Of a stretch of 64,000 nucleotides of DNA, positions 3,901-54,071 are shown one piece after another. The first letter of the stretch is position 1. Every line of letters starts with the position of its first letter. A program made the translations under genes and the position numbers. Where the stretch lies: the NCBI RefSeq assembly GCF_013408415.1, contig NZ_JACCAA010000001.1, positions 930,001 through 994,000 on the forward strand. Direction: 5' to 3'. The notes under the pieces are model-generated. The model searched no databases. It had not been told where the DNA came from and saw only the letters and a list, made by a program, of their open reading frames with translations. Source of the stretch: Nocardioides daedukensis. Its GTDB lineage: Bacteria > Actinomycetota > Actinomycetes > Propionibacteriales > Nocardioidaceae.

Positions 3901-4931
3901 GTCAGCTCGAACTCCGGGAAGTGGGTCTCCCCCAGGCCCAGGTCTGCTCGCGGGTCGAGTGCACATCTCTCAGCAGTGGCGCGGGTGCGGGCGAGCAGCT
4001 CGCGCGCCTCCCGTGCGGGGTCGCCGGACAGGCCGGCCAGGTGGCAGATCTCCTCGGCGATCTCGTGCATCTGCTTGCCGGACTTGAGGAAGCCCTCGGC
4101 GTTGCGCCGGAAACCGCCCGGTCCGCCGCCGGAGAGCCCCGCCGAGCCGAGGGGCACCAGGGTGCGGGCGGCGTCGAGCACGTCGATGGTGGGCGCGTCG
4201 AGCCGGTCGGCATAGCGGACCGCGTTGGTCAGCACCATCGTCAGTCCGGCGTCGCGGGCAGCCCCCGCCATCCGAGCGGCGTGCTGCGACGAACCGGGGC
4301 CCCAGCCCTGGTTGCTCCCGGGGAGGCGGTGGGAGACGAGCTCGACGACGAGGTTCTCCCGTGGGACCAGGCCCTTCCAGCGGGCCAGGACCTCGCGGGC
4401 ACGATCGGGACGACGTGCTGTCGCCGCGGCCCCGAGGGTGGATCCCGGTCCGAGCAGGACGATGACGTCGTCGCCGCAGTGCTCCGCGATCAGCTCCGCA
4501 GTGGCCACCGGTCGTCCCCGTTCCCCGGTCAGGTGGGTGGCTGAGACCAGCCGGCAGATCGATGCCCAGCCGGCCTTCCCGCTGGCCAGGAACAGCGCCC
4601 GGGGCAGGTTCTGCTCACGGAACGCGCCTCCACGCACCGGGCTGCGTCGTTGACTGCCGGGTCGGTGGTTCCCTTCGGGCCCGGGCAGCAGCGCCGCCTG
4701 GTCGGTGGCCGCAGCCGAGTAGGCGAGATCCACCCCGAGCACCGGGCGGATCCCGGCCCGGGCGCACTCCTTCACGAACCGGACCGCGCCATAGGTGCCG
4801 TCGCGGTCGGTCAGGGCAAGGGCATCCATCTCCTGTTCCAGGGCACGCTCGACCAGCACGTGCGGGTGGCTTGCGCCGTACTGGAGTGAGTAGCCGGAGG
4901 CGACATGGAGATGGACGAACGGGTCAGGCAC
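984..4931 (-). CDS. dnaE2: error-prone DNA polymerase III alpha subunit DnaE2
   Basis: A C-family DNA polymerase of 1315 residues that in actinobacteria performs SOS mutagenesis. The N-terminus (VHLHVASGYSLQYGASH, then LTDRDGTYGAVRFV) is a PHP domain. The palm has PDIDIDVESARR and LLKLDVLGIRMQ with the catalytic aspartates; LDDSTGPVDATFFEDA belongs to the C-terminal OB fold. It is longer than the roughly 1,080-residue mycobacterial enzyme: a low-complexity segment rich in Arg, Ser, Ala and Gln (about window 1740-1980) sits between the helix-hairpin region and the OB fold. The start is a GTG (VPDPFVHLHV) overlapping the end of the upstream HEPN gene by 8 nt, which implies translational coupling. 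Very confident on family; the DnaE2 rather than DnaE1 assignment rests on neighbours and the divergent palm. Confidence 0.93.
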   Translation of the reverse strand: MPDPFVHLHVASGYSLQYGASHPHVLVERALEQEMDALALTDRDGTYGAVRFVKECARAGIRPVLGVDLAYSAAATDQAALLPGPEGNHRPGSQRRSPVRGGAFREQNLPRALFLASGKAGWASICRLVSATHLTGERGRPVATAELIAEHCGDDVIVLLGPGSTLGAAATARRPDRAREVLARWKGLVPRENLVVELVSHRLPGSNQGWGPGSSQHAARMAGAARDAGLTMVLTNAVRYADRLDAPTIDVLDAARTLVPLGSAGLSGGGPGGFRRNAEGFLKSGKQMHEIAEEICHLAGLSGDPAREARELLARTRATAERCALDPRADLGLGETHFPEFELTSRRGSGGGQTLGGADSTLRARCEAAIDWRYGNVARQRIWKRLDDELEMIRDLGYAPYFLTVGDVVAMIREMGVRAAARGSGAGSLVNYLLGISGVDPIRHGLLMERFLSPLRKDLPDIDIDVESARRLEVYDAILDRYGAERCVAVSMMETYRVRHAVRDVGAALGMPPGEIDAIAKAFPHIRARDARMALRELPELRASGFLQAQGGAGSEMFFGLVERLDGLPRHVAMHPCGVLLSDATLLDRTPVEASHAGYPMSQFDKDDVEDLGLLKLDVLGIRMQSAMAHALAEIKRVDDVEIDLDNEAEVPFDDDTTFEMISAAKTLGVFQIESPGQRELVGKSGIDSFDDIITDISLFRPGPVKSDMITPYLEAKQGWKMPSYLHDDLKPILSQTHGVVVFHEQVIEIIGQFGGVSYAEADEKRRALGKPDGMAQTKLWFFPRCLARGYSTRVAEQVWKILEAFASFGFCKAHAAAFALPTYQSAWLKAHWPAHFLAGVLTHDPGMYPKRLILDDARQLGITVLGLDVNRSGKEYTVEPVSSGSAYVAAGSPGPTRTGVDHGIRLALAEVKGINAGEVQRIVAARGEDEESPFQSLSDFWHRTNTSRPVVERLVLAGGFDDVYGIGATNDVRRRGSVTRRDLLLQVAELDRLARAGARSSTRGRGLTSKALTRTRTPQQQASARAEQAAARSSTDPLLREDAPGTERHALGRAGVWAQASAQSRAAAPPVPVTSVQLALDLGEGQEGEASGLPEMDSHDRMKAELEILGLDVSQHVVENYREFLDALGVVRSKDLLAQRKRSGILVAGVKVATQTPPIRSGRRVIFLTLDDSTGPVDATFFEDAQSSYASTVFGSWLLVVRGELRRTGRRGVSVRATGCWELPALHAAWYAGGLDAVQDLMDRTSDGADADRTNTDRAGSGQESNQPKRVLVHSSGFRMSPYADIRPAGGPTDNGKEIEVPRRLWHRSPGSAG

Positions 4932-5391
4932 TGAGCCCGGGTCGCCAGGGCAGTTGTTCCTCGAACGGCATGTGTGGTGCCAGTCCGAGGGCCTGCTCGA
5001 CGATGGCCAGGAACCGGTCCGACTCACGGACCAGGTCGTCTGCCTCGCGCTCGTTGACCGCGCGGGTGGAGCCTGCCTCTGCTGCGGCGCGCTTGCTGGC
5101 ACCGGCGGAGAAGAAGGCGGCCCACTCGGACAGCTCGGGAGCGATCTCCGCCAGCAGCACCCAGGCGTTCTTCTGGGCCCGACGGCGGCTGCTCGTGGGA
5201 ACCGGGACGGAGCGGGCGGCGATCAGGGCCGCGGCTGCTCGCAGTGCGGCGACGTGTGCGCACGCATAGCGGGTCGGGACCTCGGTCGTCGTGATCGCCT
5301 CACGCAGTGACTCGGCCGCCCGCTCGAGGTAGGAGTGGGTGGTTGCCGGGAGGCAGTAGGGGTTGGGGGTGGTGGGGTTCTTCGCAGTCAT
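4924..5391 (-). CDS. SAV_6107-family HEPN-domain protein
   Basis: A 155-residue, mostly helical protein rich in Ala, Glu and Arg. Segments such as YLERAAESLREAITTTEVPTR and ACAHVAALRAAAALIA resemble the actinobacterial SAV_6107 HEPN family. Many HEPN proteins are RNases or nucleic-acid-associated helical bundles; no RxxxxH active site is obvious here, so catalysis is not claimed. The gene is 15 nt after the DUF6504 gene and its stop overlaps the dnaE2 GTG start, occupying the place where imuA'/imuB stand in the classical mutasome operon. A role as a DnaE2 partner is inference from that tight coupling. Confidence 0.8.
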   Translation of the reverse strand: MTAKNPTTPNPYCLPATTHSYLERAAESLREAITTTEVPTRYACAHVAALRAAAALIAARSVPVPTSSRRRAQKNAWVLLAEIAPELSEWAAFFSAGASKRAAAEAGSTRAVNEREADDLVRESDRFLAIVEQALGLAPHMPFEEQLPWRPGLSA

Positions 5392-50029: not shown

Positions 50030-51254
50030 CTAGCCGGCGATCGTGACGCGCTCCAACACGGTCGGATGGCTCCCGAACCAGAACTGCGACCATGCCGGCG
50101 GCGTCGGATCACAGACGGCTCGCAGGCAGAGGTCTCGTTGCAGGTCCACCATCGCCTCCGGTGACGACACCCGGAGCGCATCCAGGTCGGCCCTGAGCTC
50201 GACGTGACGACTGATCGTGTTCTGCACGGGGCTGGCCAACAAGGTGGCCACCGTCATCAGCCCGAGCACCAGGGCGACTGACCTAGGATCATCCAGGCCC
50301 CCGACCCCGGACCTGCGCCGCACCCGAGCACTCGAGGCGATCAGCCCGAGCAGGCCGACACCGATCAACGTTGCGAATGCACCGAGCCCGGTGCCGACCA
50401 GGACGTCGTCGTGCTTGGCGTGCGCCAGCTCGTGGGCGACCACCGAGAGGACCTGGTCCTCGGGCTGCGACTCGATGAGGTTGTCATAGACCACGACCCT
50501 GCGCGTGTCCCCGAAGCCGGAGACATAGGCGTTCAGCGTCGTCGTACGCCGTGATGCGTCGGCAATCAGCACGTCGTCGACCGCCACGCCCTGATCGTCG
50601 GCCAGTGCCAGGATCTGCGAACGAGTGTCACCGTCCGGCATCGATGAGAAGTCATTGAAGAGCGGCTCGACCAGCACCGGATAGACATAGGACCCAGCGA
50701 GCACGAGGCCGGCGCAGGCTCCGCCTGCGATCGCCGGCCACCAGGTTCGCCAGCGTCGCGCACATCCGACCAGGACCAGCAGCGCGATCGAGGTGACCGC
50801 GAGCCCCAGTAGATAGTTCTTGGCCAGATCGATACTCCAGTCGGCCAGGGTCTGCTCGGTCAGCCCGTAGTCCACCCGCCGCTGACGAAGTGCCAACGAG
50901 AAGGGCAACGTCGCGACCTGACCGATCAGCAGGATGACCGCGCTGAGGCCGATCACCTGGAGCGGCCACTTCGACGTGCGCCCCCCCGAGAAGCCGGGCG
51001 CCGCGCGAGGTGAACCCGAGCCAGCAGGAGATCACCACCGAGACCAGCAGGGCCGACCAGCTCAGGATCCGGGTCCATCTCGCGTAGGCCTCTCCCCTGC
51101 TGACCTGCTCCGCGGTGAAGACATCACTCGCCCTGGCGGGCTCCGGCCATCCGCCGGAGGCTGGGTTCCACGGCACGAGGGCCAGAGCGAGCGCGCCGAA
51201 CCCGACGGCTCCGCACAGCACCATGGCCAAGCAGACCTTGCGGTGCAACGTCAT
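50030..51254 (-). pseudogene. M48 (Ste24-like) membrane metalloprotease gene with a frameshift
   Basis: Two frames together make one Ste24/CAAX-type protease. The 5' part (ATG 51254) encodes MTLHRKVCLAMVLCGAVGFG through TSRGARLLGG; the 3' part runs from about 50980 in another frame and holds the membrane helices and the zinc site VVAHELAHAKHDDV plus the HVELRADLDAL Glu. The break is at a run of seven G (C at 50981-50987 on the + strand). With six G the reading frame is continuous, giving RLLGGRTSKWPLQVIGLSAV and a 407-residue protein. It may be a sequencing error, a true mutation or a slippery site. A GTG at 50956 could still start a 308-residue protease core. ATGA overlap with the upstream gene. 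Confidence 0.8.
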
Positions 51255-52489
51255 CTCGCCAAGTCCTCCAGCTCGGTGCGCCACAGATCGACGAGCTCGC
51301 GCTCGCTCAGTTCGAAGTGATCCTTCAGCGCGTCCGCGAGCGACGTGCCGGCCGAGACATCGTCATAGAGGGCAACGAGGGCGTCCTCCGACCCGGTCTT
51401 CGCGAGCACCCGACACACCAACCAGGCGGACTCGTACGCAGCTCCGAGGTGTGTGGTCCGCGTGTCGAACTCGTTCCTCCCGGGCAGGGCCTTGGGCGCA
51501 CCATCGGCGCGCACCTTCTTGATGATCTGTCCTGCCGACGTGGCGACCGGGACGTCCACGTCCCGCAACGCCACATAATCGGCAAAGCCCTCGAGCAACC
51601 AGAGCGGGACCCCCGAGGTCACGGCTGCCCCCGTCGCCACGTGGGCAGCCTCGTGGCTCATCACCACCTGCGCTCCCTGCGGCTTGAGCCCCGCCCACAT
51701 CTGGGGGTTCACGAAGACGTGCACCGGGGCGCTCGGCGACAGCGAGCCGTCAACGGTGGTGGTGACCGCGGCGATGTTGGCGTAGTCACCCGGCGACGCG
51801 TCCAGCATCGCGTCGAGTCGCGCGGCCGAGTCGGGGACCTCCACCACGAGCTTCTGCTCGGCCTCGGGGAGCATCCGCCCAGAGACGGCCACGGCTTCTC
51901 GTGCCTCGCTCGCATATCGGCCCACGGAATCGGCAGCCACCAGCACCAAGGCGTCCTCGGTTCGCTCGACCGCGAGGTCAGTGAGCAGCCAGAGCGGCGT
52001 ACGCCGTTCTCCCCCGCCGAAGGCGACCACCCGGGCGGTCTCGTCGTCGGCGTCGAAGACGACGGTGATCTCGGCGTGGGCCGGAGCCGGGTCGAAGCCG
52101 TCGAAGCGCCACGTCGCATCGACGGCGGCGGCCCACCGTCCCTCGGGAAGCGACGCGGACAGCCCTCGGTCCTCGTCGACATAGCGCAACGTGAAGTCCG
52201 TGACCTCGAGATCAGCGGCGTTGTCCGCCAGGCGACTGGCAACGTCAGGACTGCTGACCCCCTCCAGCGCGTCTCGATCGTCGCTCTCGACCGCCTCGAC
52301 GAGATCGGACAGCGCGGCTGCTGCCAGGTCCTGGCGCGCGCTGGGCGAATGCAGAACGGGAGCCTTGCCGGACTCGTCACCGGACAGCACCACGACCAGC
52401 GTGACCGCCACGACGGCGGCAAGCAGAAGACCGACCGCCCACCAGAGTGGACGGCCGGTCTTCTTTGCGATTGTGTTCAGCTTGATCAG
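51251..52489 (-). CDS. membrane-anchored HExxH metalloprotease-like protein
   Basis: About 412 residues: a short basic N-terminus, one helix (PLWWAVGLLLAAVVAVTLVVVLS), an extracellular region with a beta-rich middle, and a C-terminal gluzincin-like site: VVMSHEAAHVATG (HExxH) and WLLEGFADYVAL, whose Glu would be the third ligand. It is likely a secreted peptidase anchored in the membrane. Start is unresolved: no ATG, GTG or TTG lies between the end of the nlpC gene and the middle of the helix. The CTG at 52489 gives a CTGA overlap with the nlpC stop, like the ATGA/GTGA overlaps elsewhere, and is used here. Confidence 0.72.
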   Translation of the reverse strand: MIKLNTIAKKTGRPLWWAVGLLLAAVVAVTLVVVLSGDESGKAPVLHSPSARQDLAAAALSDLVEAVESDDRDALEGVSSPDVASRLADNAADLEVTDFTLRYVDEDRGLSASLPEGRWAAAVDATWRFDGFDPAPAHAEITVVFDADDETARVVAFGGGERRTPLWLLTDLAVERTEDALVLVAADSVGRYASEAREAVAVSGRMLPEAEQKLVVEVPDSAARLDAMLDASPGDYANIAAVTTTVDGSLSPSAPVHVFVNPQMWAGLKPQGAQVVMSHEAAHVATGAAVTSGVPLWLLEGFADYVALRDVDVPVATSAGQIIKKVRADGAPKALPGRNEFDTRTTHLGAAYESAWLVCRVLAKTGSEDALVALYDDVSAGTSLADALKDHFELSERELVDLWRTELEDLAR

Positions 52490-53508
52490 CCGGGTCGGAC
52501 GGCGCCGCTGATCGGCATCGAGGACACCGGAGCGTAGGCAACGCCGGTGCGCGGGTTGGCCGCGTGCACGATCTGACCGTTTCCGATGTAGATCCCGACG
52601 TGGCTGACCGGGCTGTAGTAGAAGACCAGGTCTCCGGGCTGGAGCTGGCTGATGGAGACCGGGGTGCCGGAGCCCATCTGTGCCTGCGAGGAGTGCGGGA
52701 GGCTCACGCCTGCCTGGGCCCAAGCCATCATGGTCAGGCCGGAGCAGTCGAACGAGCTGGGGCCGGTGCCGCCGTGGACATAGCCCTTGCCGACCTGTGC
52801 GATGGCGTAGTTGATCGCATCCGACGCGCGACCAGAGGCCTTCACGGTGGCGGGAACGCGCGCGCTGGTGCGCGACGTGGAGGTGTTGCTGCTGGTGCCC
52901 TCGTTCTCGCTTGCCGCGACCTCAGCCCGCTCAGCGGCGGTCAGCTTGGACAGGAGCTGCTCGGCCTTCTCGAGCTTGGAGTCGGCGGAGGCCTTCTCCT
53001 TGGCAAGAGCCTTCTTGGTCGAGGCGAGTTCCTCGGCACGCTCCTGCGTGGCCTCGCGACGGATCTCCAGCGCCCGCACCTCGCGGGTGTAGCTGTCGAG
53101 CTTCTGCGACTGCACGTCGTTGTAGGCCGACAGCGTCGTCAGGTCCTCGAGGAACGCGTCGGGATCCTGGGAGAGGACCAGCTTGCCGGTGGTGGAGATG
53201 CTCTGGCCCTCATATTGAGCGGCGATGGAGTCGGAAACGGCTCCGGTGAGACCTTCCACCTTCTTCTGCTGCGCCTTCTCGTCCGCCTTCAGGGCGTCGA
53301 GGTCGGCCTTCAGGTCATCGAGCTTCAGCTTGGCGTCGTTGTGACGCTCAGAGGCGACCTCGGCCTGATGGTAGAGCTTGTCGACGTTCTTGCGGACGGT
53401 TTCAACGTCCGGATCCGCGCTGCTGGGAGCGGCGGGCATCAGGCTGATGGCAATGATGGCCGTGGTGCTGGCCAGCGCCGCAACGGCGCGCTTCCGTCCG
53501 TGGTGCAT
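52486..53508 (-). CDS. NlpC/P60 peptidoglycan endopeptidase with coiled coil
   Basis: A 340-residue secreted cell-wall hydrolase. Signal peptide residues 1-31 (AVAALASTTAIIAISLMPAAPSSA); a long coiled coil at about 35-200 (LKLDDLKADLDALKADEKAQQ, ERAEELASTKKALAKEKASAD), then the NlpC/P60 domain with FDCSGLTMMAWAQAG (catalytic Cys), GDLVFYYSPVSHVGIYIGNG (catalytic His) and IVHAANP. It is like RipA/RipC and would cut stem peptides, with the coiled coil as a regulator-docking arm (FtsX-type, from family knowledge). A c-di-AMP riboswitch precedes it. Stop overlaps the downstream protease gene. Confidence 0.93.
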   Translation of the reverse strand: MHHGRKRAVAALASTTAIIAISLMPAAPSSADPDVETVRKNVDKLYHQAEVASERHNDAKLKLDDLKADLDALKADEKAQQKKVEGLTGAVSDSIAAQYEGQSISTTGKLVLSQDPDAFLEDLTTLSAYNDVQSQKLDSYTREVRALEIRREATQERAEELASTKKALAKEKASADSKLEKAEQLLSKLTAAERAEVAASENEGTSSNTSTSRTSARVPATVKASGRASDAINYAIAQVGKGYVHGGTGPSSFDCSGLTMMAWAQAGVSLPHSSQAQMGSGTPVSISQLQPGDLVFYYSPVSHVGIYIGNGQIVHAANPRTGVAYAPVSSMPISGAVRPG

Positions 53509-53532
53509 TGAGCGGACGTACTCCCTCTTTGT

Positions 53533-53690
53533 CCAACGCCTACCAGGTGAGCTGTCGGGTTCGGGCCCAAAGTAGCCCTACACGCGCTCCACGGGATTTC
53601 CGCCTCGCACGCGATTCACCCCAGGGGTGTGTGGTTCCCCGGCTTCGCAACCGAAAGACTTCCCCGCCCACGGCTGCAAACTCGGCGCGG
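53533..53690 (-). promoter_or_regulatory. c-di-AMP riboswitch (ydaO-yuaA type)
   Basis: Read on the minus strand, the leader contains in order GCGCCGAG, GGGGAACC, TGGGGTGAATC, GGCGGAAATCCCG, TAGGGC, CCGAACCCGACAGCT and CACCTGGTAGGCG. These are the conserved blocks of the ydaO class as it appears in actinobacteria, in the right order and spacing, ending about 25 nt before the nlpC ATG. In this class c-di-AMP binding normally turns expression off, so the NlpC/P60 hydrolase should be repressed at high c-di-AMP. Edges are approximate. This element fills most of the 316-nt gene-free stretch 53509-53824; nothing else is seen there. Confidence 0.92.
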
Positions 53691-53824
53691 CGCCCGAGCC
53701 GGTCCGGTATGACCAACTGGTACGGGCACCAAGGGCTCAGGTTAGTCGCGGCGGCACCCACCGGCAAACCCTTGCGGCCCATGTCGTGGACAACGTCGAG
53801 AAAGTTCACGTGGCGTAGGTCACA

Positions 53825-54031
53825 TCAGGCGGACTCGACCTCCGGGCCGGCGAGCGGAGTCACCATCCGCAGGGGTGGGACCAGGCCGGACTCGGCGAGC
53901 ACGTCCAGCGCACGGCACTCGTCATCATCGAACGCGAGCTCGGGCGGCGGCCCCAGCAGGACGGTCACGACGCAGTCGTGGCAGGCCAGGCCGCGCACTT
54001 CACAGGTGTCACAGTCAATTCGCAGGGTCAT
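53825..54031 (-). CDS. small Cys-rich conserved protein
   Basis: A 68-residue protein: MTLRIDCDTCEVRGLACHDCVVTVLLG with two CxxC pairs that may bind zinc or iron, then an acidic stretch (ELAFDDDECRALDVLAESGLVPPL). No function known; similar short proteins are expected beside NYN-domain genes in actinobacteria. The ATG at 54031 is preferred to an in-frame start ten codons earlier because the conserved part begins with MTLRIDC. Confidence 0.72.
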   Translation of the reverse strand: MTLRIDCDTCEVRGLACHDCVVTVLLGPPPELAFDDDECRALDVLAESGLVPPLRMVTPLAGPEVESA

Positions 54032-54071
54032 GGCACGGACTGTGACAGAAGGGACTGACAATGCCCTCCGA

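Follow-up and report, generated by a model that had tools for sequence, protein, structure and literature searches.

We analysed a window of 64,000 nucleotides (nt) from Nocardioides daedukensis (C1:930001-994000, where C1 is NZ_JACCAA010000001.1, the single contig of the 3.81-Mb genome), in which an RF00379 (ydaO/yuaA) aptamer for cyclic di-AMP (c-di-AMP) precedes three genes on the minus strand: nlpC, a gene for a putative metalloprotease with an HExxH motif (HExxH gene) and a gene for an M48 metalloprotease. With cmscan, RF00379 matched positions 53687-53522 of the window at 66.2 bits (E 3.8e-13; gathering score, 38 bits), and a search of the whole genome returned the same aptamer at 53693-53522 with 66.6 bits. 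RF00379 alone among Rfam families exceeded its own cut-off in the window. The original prediction had placed this leader in the ydaO class on the strength of three conserved blocks, all of which are present when the minus strand is read, and had named a wall hydrolase as the target; the covariance model and the position of nlpC directly downstream, with 13 nt between the 3' end of the aptamer and the ATG at 53508, bore out both proposals. The leader is, as judged from its sequence, a genuine c-di-AMP riboswitch whose RNA would bind the ligand, and the genome contains one match to the diadenylate cyclase domain (93.8 bits). Such a riboswitch with a hydrolase target is ordinary for actinobacteria.

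The order riboswitch-nlpC-HExxH-M48 is widespread and conserved well beyond this genome. RF00379 exceeded its cut-off in 50 of 58 genomes searched (our own included), and 95 places were listed, two of them in our own genome. We compared 82 stretches, consisting of 80 of the 93 foreign places (three below the cut-off), the window and the second copy in the same genome (L002; C1:1324863-1325035), which lies upstream of a short NlpC/P60 gene. Both nlpC and the HExxH gene followed the riboswitch in 38 of these stretches, and M48 was also present in 29 of the 38, some stretches being too short to show it. A partially overlapping set comprised the best 80 named loci from at least 528 confirmed HExxH relatives, nearly all of them titled Nocardioides, Marmoricola, Pimelobacter or Nocardioidaceae. 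All 80 had nlpC within 900 nt upstream of the HExxH gene; nlpC was preceded by the aptamer motif in 72, and M48 lay downstream in 62. When 20 of the 72 motif-positive loci were checked against Rfam, 19 were over the cut-off and one (L176) was not. The eight motif-negative loci (L128, L138, L148, L159 and L189-L192) gave no RF00379 match at the gathering score; a missed riboswitch was rejected for the six of them that were given a looser search, with no match up to E = 1.

Class-wide, an HExxH relative was found at E <= 1e-10 in 120 of 246 genomes. From the match list we picked 60 regions, not at random, of which 59 hold the HExxH gene, including a paralogue in our own genome and a second copy in another. 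Among these 59 loci, a same-strand NlpC/P60 gene lies upstream in 43, RF00379 upstream in 30 (all 30 being among the 43) and M48 downstream in 26. Eight loci of one genus (L194-L200 and L222) have two NlpC genes before the HExxH gene and no RF00379 at the cut-off. At L216, from another actinobacterial family, the NlpC gene precedes the riboswitches; two c-di-AMP riboswitches (4492-4642 and 5070-5240, minus strand), 427 nt apart, were seen there upstream of the HExxH and M48 genes. A search of licence-limited literature found no report of an nlpC-HExxH-M48 cluster with two metalloproteases.

Table 1. Features of the nlpC locus, in window coordinates.
Feature	Position	Strand	Basis
c-di-AMP riboswitch aptamer (RF00379, ydaO/yuaA)	53522-53693	minus	cmscan and whole-genome search
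Pseudoknot loop strand CUUUG of the aptamer	53568-53572	minus	Complementary to 53531-53527; loop/tail covariation in relatives
Pseudoknot 3' strand CAAAG, last two bases common to ribosome-binding site AGAGGGAG	53527-53531	minus	Sequence
nlpC ribosome-binding site AGAGGGAG, 12 nt 5' of ATG	53521-53528	minus	Sequence; pseudoknot-adjacent position common in relatives
nlpC: NlpC/P60 wall peptidase, RipC-like, probably secreted	52486-53508	minus	PF00877, 86.7 bits (cut-off 23)
Candidate terminator/attenuator or coupling element: uninterrupted 17-bp stem (two G-U pairs) with 4-nt loop	52426-52463	minus	Fold z-score, covariation
HExxH gene: gluzincin-like metallopeptidase with one N-terminal helix (putative membrane anchor), start uncertain	51251-52489	minus	Motif, AlphaFold2 model, Foldseek
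M48 gene: CAAX-protease-like; ATGA overlap with HExxH gene; frame broken in assembly	50030-51254	minus	PF01435, PF16491, frame comparison

The aptamer pseudoknot and the nlpC ribosome-binding site

As in the solved ydaO RNA, a loop and a tail of the aptamer can form a pseudoknot in the window (CUUUG/CAAAG), the partners being a hairpin loop just 5' of the GAACCCG block and the tail just 3' of P1. The pairing covaries over 133 distinct aptamers (from 155 extracted), among which combinations as different as GUCGU/ACGAC, CUUCC/GGAAG, UCUUUG/CAAAGA, CUUUCC/GGAAAG and CCUCUC/GAGAGG occur. The longest Watson-Crick helix between loop and tail averaged 5.13 pairs in this set, compared with 3.97 +/- 0.08 for permuted partners (maximum over 200 permutations, 4.18) and 3.58 for shuffled tails.

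With the ribosome-binding site located by a simple pattern, the site overlapped the 3' strand of the pseudoknot or lay at most 8 nt 3' of it in 127 of the 133 aptamers, being inside the strand in 37, overlapping it by 1-2 nt in 22 and lying up to 8 nt downstream in 68. The remaining six had the site farther 3' (three) or 5' of the strand (two), or formed no helix of at least four pairs (one). The pseudoknot strand of L002, GGAAAG, is inside the ribosome-binding site itself. A ligand-held pseudoknot at this position would be expected to block the ribosome. A scan for terminators based on the U-tract found none between 49700 and 54100, and a promoter scan found none for the leader. The anatomy of the leader at the level of sequence, with a pseudoknot beside the ribosome-binding site, the short distance to the ATG and no terminator by scan, thus favours a translational OFF-switch.

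Two other features were noticed by eye around the leader. Complementary CGUCCG and CGGACG before and after the nlpC ATG (53495-53518, minus strand) may form a start-codon hairpin in the window and in L035, and the sequence TTGCCG-17 nt-TAACCT was spotted at 53767-53739, upstream of the leader. A small open reading frame (ORF) with a CxxC motif and no Pfam match is located at 53825-54061 (minus strand), between an NYN/YacP gene and the riboswitch.

The nlpC/HExxH junction and the protease genes

The stem-loop at the junction begins 22 nt 3' of the nlpC stop codon, apparently within the 5' part of the HExxH frame. The 106-nt junction region folds with a z-score of -5.24, and none of 200 shuffles was as stable. 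The palindrome is present in 56 of 108 distinct junctions. In an alignment of 37 of the 56 palindrome loci, namely the window plus 36 named ones, 96.2% of cells pair and seven of the 17 pairs have changed on both sides, with 30 double-changed cells compared with 10.7 +/- 3.0 after shuffling and none of 500 shuffles as high. We rejected a dispersed palindromic repeat as the source of the stem-loop, given that the genome contains a single match at up to three mismatches.

A local stem-loop fell below the 5% level of random windows from the same locus in 73 of the 108 junctions. Eight of the 108 show a direct nlpC/HExxH overlap of the ATGA, GTGA or TTGA type, and none of the eight has a strong stem-loop; conversely, no such overlap occurs among the 56 palindrome loci. 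The other 44 junctions divide into 20 whose stem-loop is of another kind and below -31 kcal/mol, and 24 with neither feature. The separation of direct-overlap loci from stem-loop loci therefore indicates at least two junction designs. Unrelated strong stem-loops occupy the same place in L098, L100 and L110, which belong to another family, and TTTTT follows that of L100. Among 41 junctions examined class-wide, strong stem-loops were found in some others (for example, L201, L224, L225, L231 and L249), and many riboswitch-nlpC-HExxH-M48 clusters (L217, L219, L227, L228 and L244-L247) had none above background. L128 and L189 retain the palindrome although they have no riboswitch, and its role is therefore not tied to the switch.

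The start of the HExxH gene bears on how this element is read. Its open frame extends through the 3' end of nlpC, with TTG 52723 as the first listed start. Within the stretch that starts about 90 nt upstream of the nlpC stop and ends 74 nt downstream of it, this frame contains no ATG, GTG or TTG. Its start-like codons upstream of the stem-loop near the junction are limited to CTG, at 52489, where it overlaps the nlpC stop, and at 52480. We did not accept the CTG at the nlpC stop as a proven start: CTG alone was found in the HExxH frame at 37 of the 56 palindrome loci and in one control frame at 34 of 56, and it is weak evidence for that reason. Standard start codons before the stem-loop were found in the HExxH frame at 18 of the 56 loci compared with two and zero in the other frames, an excess which argues that the stem-loop is inside the HExxH gene. 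L051 has neither a standard start nor CTG before the stem-loop, and its frame is shifted. A programmed frameshift from nlpC into the HExxH gene was rejected because the relative frame varies among relatives. The two junction designs suggest that the stem-loop may be an attenuator kept open by ribosomes. This element is the new and testable part of the locus, the riboswitch itself being of a known kind.

The original prediction had each gene overlapping the next, and this description holds for the second junction, at which the HExxH stop and the M48 ATG share ATGA (51254-51251); the first lacks a standard start, and the M48 frame is broken. Because of a frame change in M48 at seven consecutive G (50987-50981, minus strand), the N-terminal part (ORF 51284-50652) and the domain (ORF 50956-50030; PF01435, 84 bits with a cut-off of 20.3; PF16491, 40.1 bits) are out of frame with each other. 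Among 84 distinct loci (window included), 79 have an M48 frame that extends unbroken upstream to the HExxH stop, the five exceptions being the window and four loci of another family with an intergenic gap, and the 4-nt overlap is found in 44. When 196 genomes of the genus were searched at the DNA level, none proved to be a close relative in which to check the break, the longer matches being 65-72% identical. The break may be either a sequencing error or real.

The HExxH protein combines the HExxH motif, a downstream glutamate and a gluzincin fold, as do gluzincins of clan MA. Residues H279, E280, H283 and E300 are invariant in 33 aligned rows, as are HExxH and the downstream WLxEG motif among these relatives. 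Its AlphaFold2 model has a mean predicted local distance difference test score of 92.2 and an N-terminal helix at residues 15-35, and the best matches of the model in the PDB, by Foldseek, were M1 aminopeptidases, collagenase domains and an M30 peptidase (best E 1.6e-4; template modelling score on the query, 0.40). In Pfam, no family was over its cut-off for the protein of the window, which gave weak matches to PF01433 and PF13485; at E up to 0.1, PF04450 matched 31 of 33 family members. In place of a plain membrane helix, some HExxH proteins (L053, L062, L068, L078-L080 and others) have an N-terminus that resembles a lipobox; a loose pattern, which takes in some false positives, gave a count of 27 of 108. 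For the nlpC product, the NCBIfam RipC model scored 161.1 bits, under its cut-off of 425.

Regulatory readings and known systems

We consider it probable that the riboswitch is a translational OFF-switch on nlpC and that the proteases are reached only indirectly. When c-di-AMP is bound, the pseudoknot would be held against the ribosome-binding site, 12-20 nt 5' of the ATG, and the 30S subunit could not land on nlpC; at low c-di-AMP, the tail would be free and the NlpC peptidoglycan peptidase would be made. Ribosomes would reach the HExxH and M48 genes by completing nlpC and reinitiating at a poor start codon at its stop, and expression of these two genes would also depend on transcription passing the stem-loop. 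Several observations weigh against this reading. The window pseudoknot has only five Watson-Crick pairs, and a longer register of six pairs with GGAGUA, further 3', is available if G-U pairs are allowed. The class-wide set of 31 aptamers has one pairing type in most members and a mean helix of 5.03 pairs, not clearly above the 4.75 +/- 0.12 for permuted partners (highest of 500, 5.13), and is insufficient alone. The whole leader folds no better than shuffles (z-score 0.33). The eight of 80 named clusters without RF00379 mean that the cluster can do without the riboswitch, and the rpfA riboswitch of Streptomyces coelicolor is reported, in the text of PMC10117811 drawn on here, to control transcription.

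That precedent speaks for another reading, in which the riboswitch acts on transcription and so sets the level of the whole transcript; we regard this reading as improbable. The presence of the riboswitch also lowered the transcript in Corynebacterium glutamicum, although not in response to c-di-AMP, according to part of PMC9960051. Against this reading, the scan found no terminator-like element, aptamer and ATG are only 13 nt apart, and the pseudoknot abuts the ribosome-binding site.

The original prediction placed both proteases in the c-di-AMP regulon by virtue of gene overlap. Control of both by c-di-AMP is only partly supported: the conserved gene order speaks for it, and the junction stem-loop, the uncertain HExxH start and the broken M48 frame speak against it. 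In its simplest form, in which one transcript runs from riboswitch to M48 and the overlaps pass control to both proteases, this idea is a possibility that we rate well below an indirect route. It gains from the order at the 80 named loci, from the 44 of 84 HExxH/M48 overlaps, from the 30 of 59 class-wide loci in which RF00379 is accompanied by NlpC/P60, and from those M48-bearing clusters without a junction stem-loop beyond background. It is opposed by the stem-loop after nlpC in the clade of the window, the lack of a standard HExxH start upstream of it, the 0 of 56 palindrome loci with a direct overlap, the break in M48, and a C. glutamicum reporter in which the first gene alone was affected. 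A terminator after nlpC, which the original prediction recognised as incompatible with its claim, has a candidate in the conserved stem-loop (52463-52426), yet the U-tract scan found none. Somewhat less likely still is that nlpC forms a single-gene unit ended by this stem-loop as a U-poor intrinsic terminator, with expression of the HExxH and M48 genes depending on read-through or on a promoter of their own, outside c-di-AMP control. The position, stability, covariation and single genomic occurrence of the 17-bp stem are consistent with such a unit, as are the unrelated stem-loops of L098, L100 (with its five T) and L110 and the statement in passages of a review (PMC12288462) that mycobacterial terminators mostly lack poly-U and lie within 50 bp of the stop. 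Against such a unit, work cited in the same passages holds that the mycobacterial polymerase needs a U-tract; the window stem is followed by TTCTGCTTG, with no U-run, so that of the two parts of an intrinsic terminator, a GC-rich stem and a U-tract, the first is present and the second absent. The excess of in-frame starts also suggests that the loop lies inside the HExxH gene.

A two-stage relay, which we offer as a speculative extension and think unlikely, would convert the translational switch into transcriptional control of the HExxH and M48 genes. While nlpC is translated, ribosomes restarting at its stop, on CUG or a different NUG codon, would keep the stem-loop open and polymerase would continue into the protease genes; once c-di-AMP stops translation of nlpC, the bare RNA would fold into the 17-bp stem and transcription would end after nlpC. 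Loci with a direct overlap would need no loop, and a strong one was seen in 0 of the 8 such loci.

Through this cluster c-di-AMP, a messenger tied to the condition of the wall and to osmotic state, is connected in many actinobacteria with a conserved set of genes for a wall peptidase and two metalloproteases, and the RNA element at the junction may decide whether the proteases fall inside or outside c-di-AMP control. A pseudoknot beside the ribosome-binding site provides a testable mechanism for translational c-di-AMP switches, of which the searched literature yielded no tested example besides nlpC (cg2402) of C. glutamicum.

For that gene, section 3.3 of PMC9960051 reports that c-di-AMP lowers the protein and not the transcript and that, of the two genes in a reporter, the first alone responded, and the authors propose pairing with the ribosome-binding site. 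Like the window, this system has an RF00379-class aptamer before an NlpC/P60 gene that leads a cluster and, in the same source, no canonical terminator; by analogy with it, the window riboswitch would be a translational OFF-switch. The window differs in having the HExxH and M48 genes next, with a stem-loop at the junction. The aptamer blocks and the loop-tail pseudoknot are shared with Bacillus subtilis ydaO/kimA and with the ydaO RNA of RNA-Puzzle 12 (PMC5393176). Passages of PMC5393176 mention the pseudoknot and do not itemise its pairs; the pairing of CUCCUUCG with CGAAGGAG is our own reading of the sequence printed there. Whereas the riboswitch of ydaO/kimA, as described in part of PMC9960051, controls a potassium importer by way of a transcription terminator, the pseudoknot strand of the window touches the ribosome-binding site. 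Like nlpC, S. coelicolor rpfA encodes an actinobacterial wall hydrolase and has a ydaO-like riboswitch that controls it (PMC10117811, in part), and for Streptomyces lividans the relevant portion of PMC8079986 describes six RF00379 leaders with one gene listed for each. The junction stem-loop resembles the U-poor "I-shaped" terminators of mycobacteria in passages of PMC12288462, in which a long GC-rich stem lies no more than 50 bp from the stop and poly-U is lacking; unlike these, the window stem seems to be inside the 5' frame of the next gene, and termination at it is putative.
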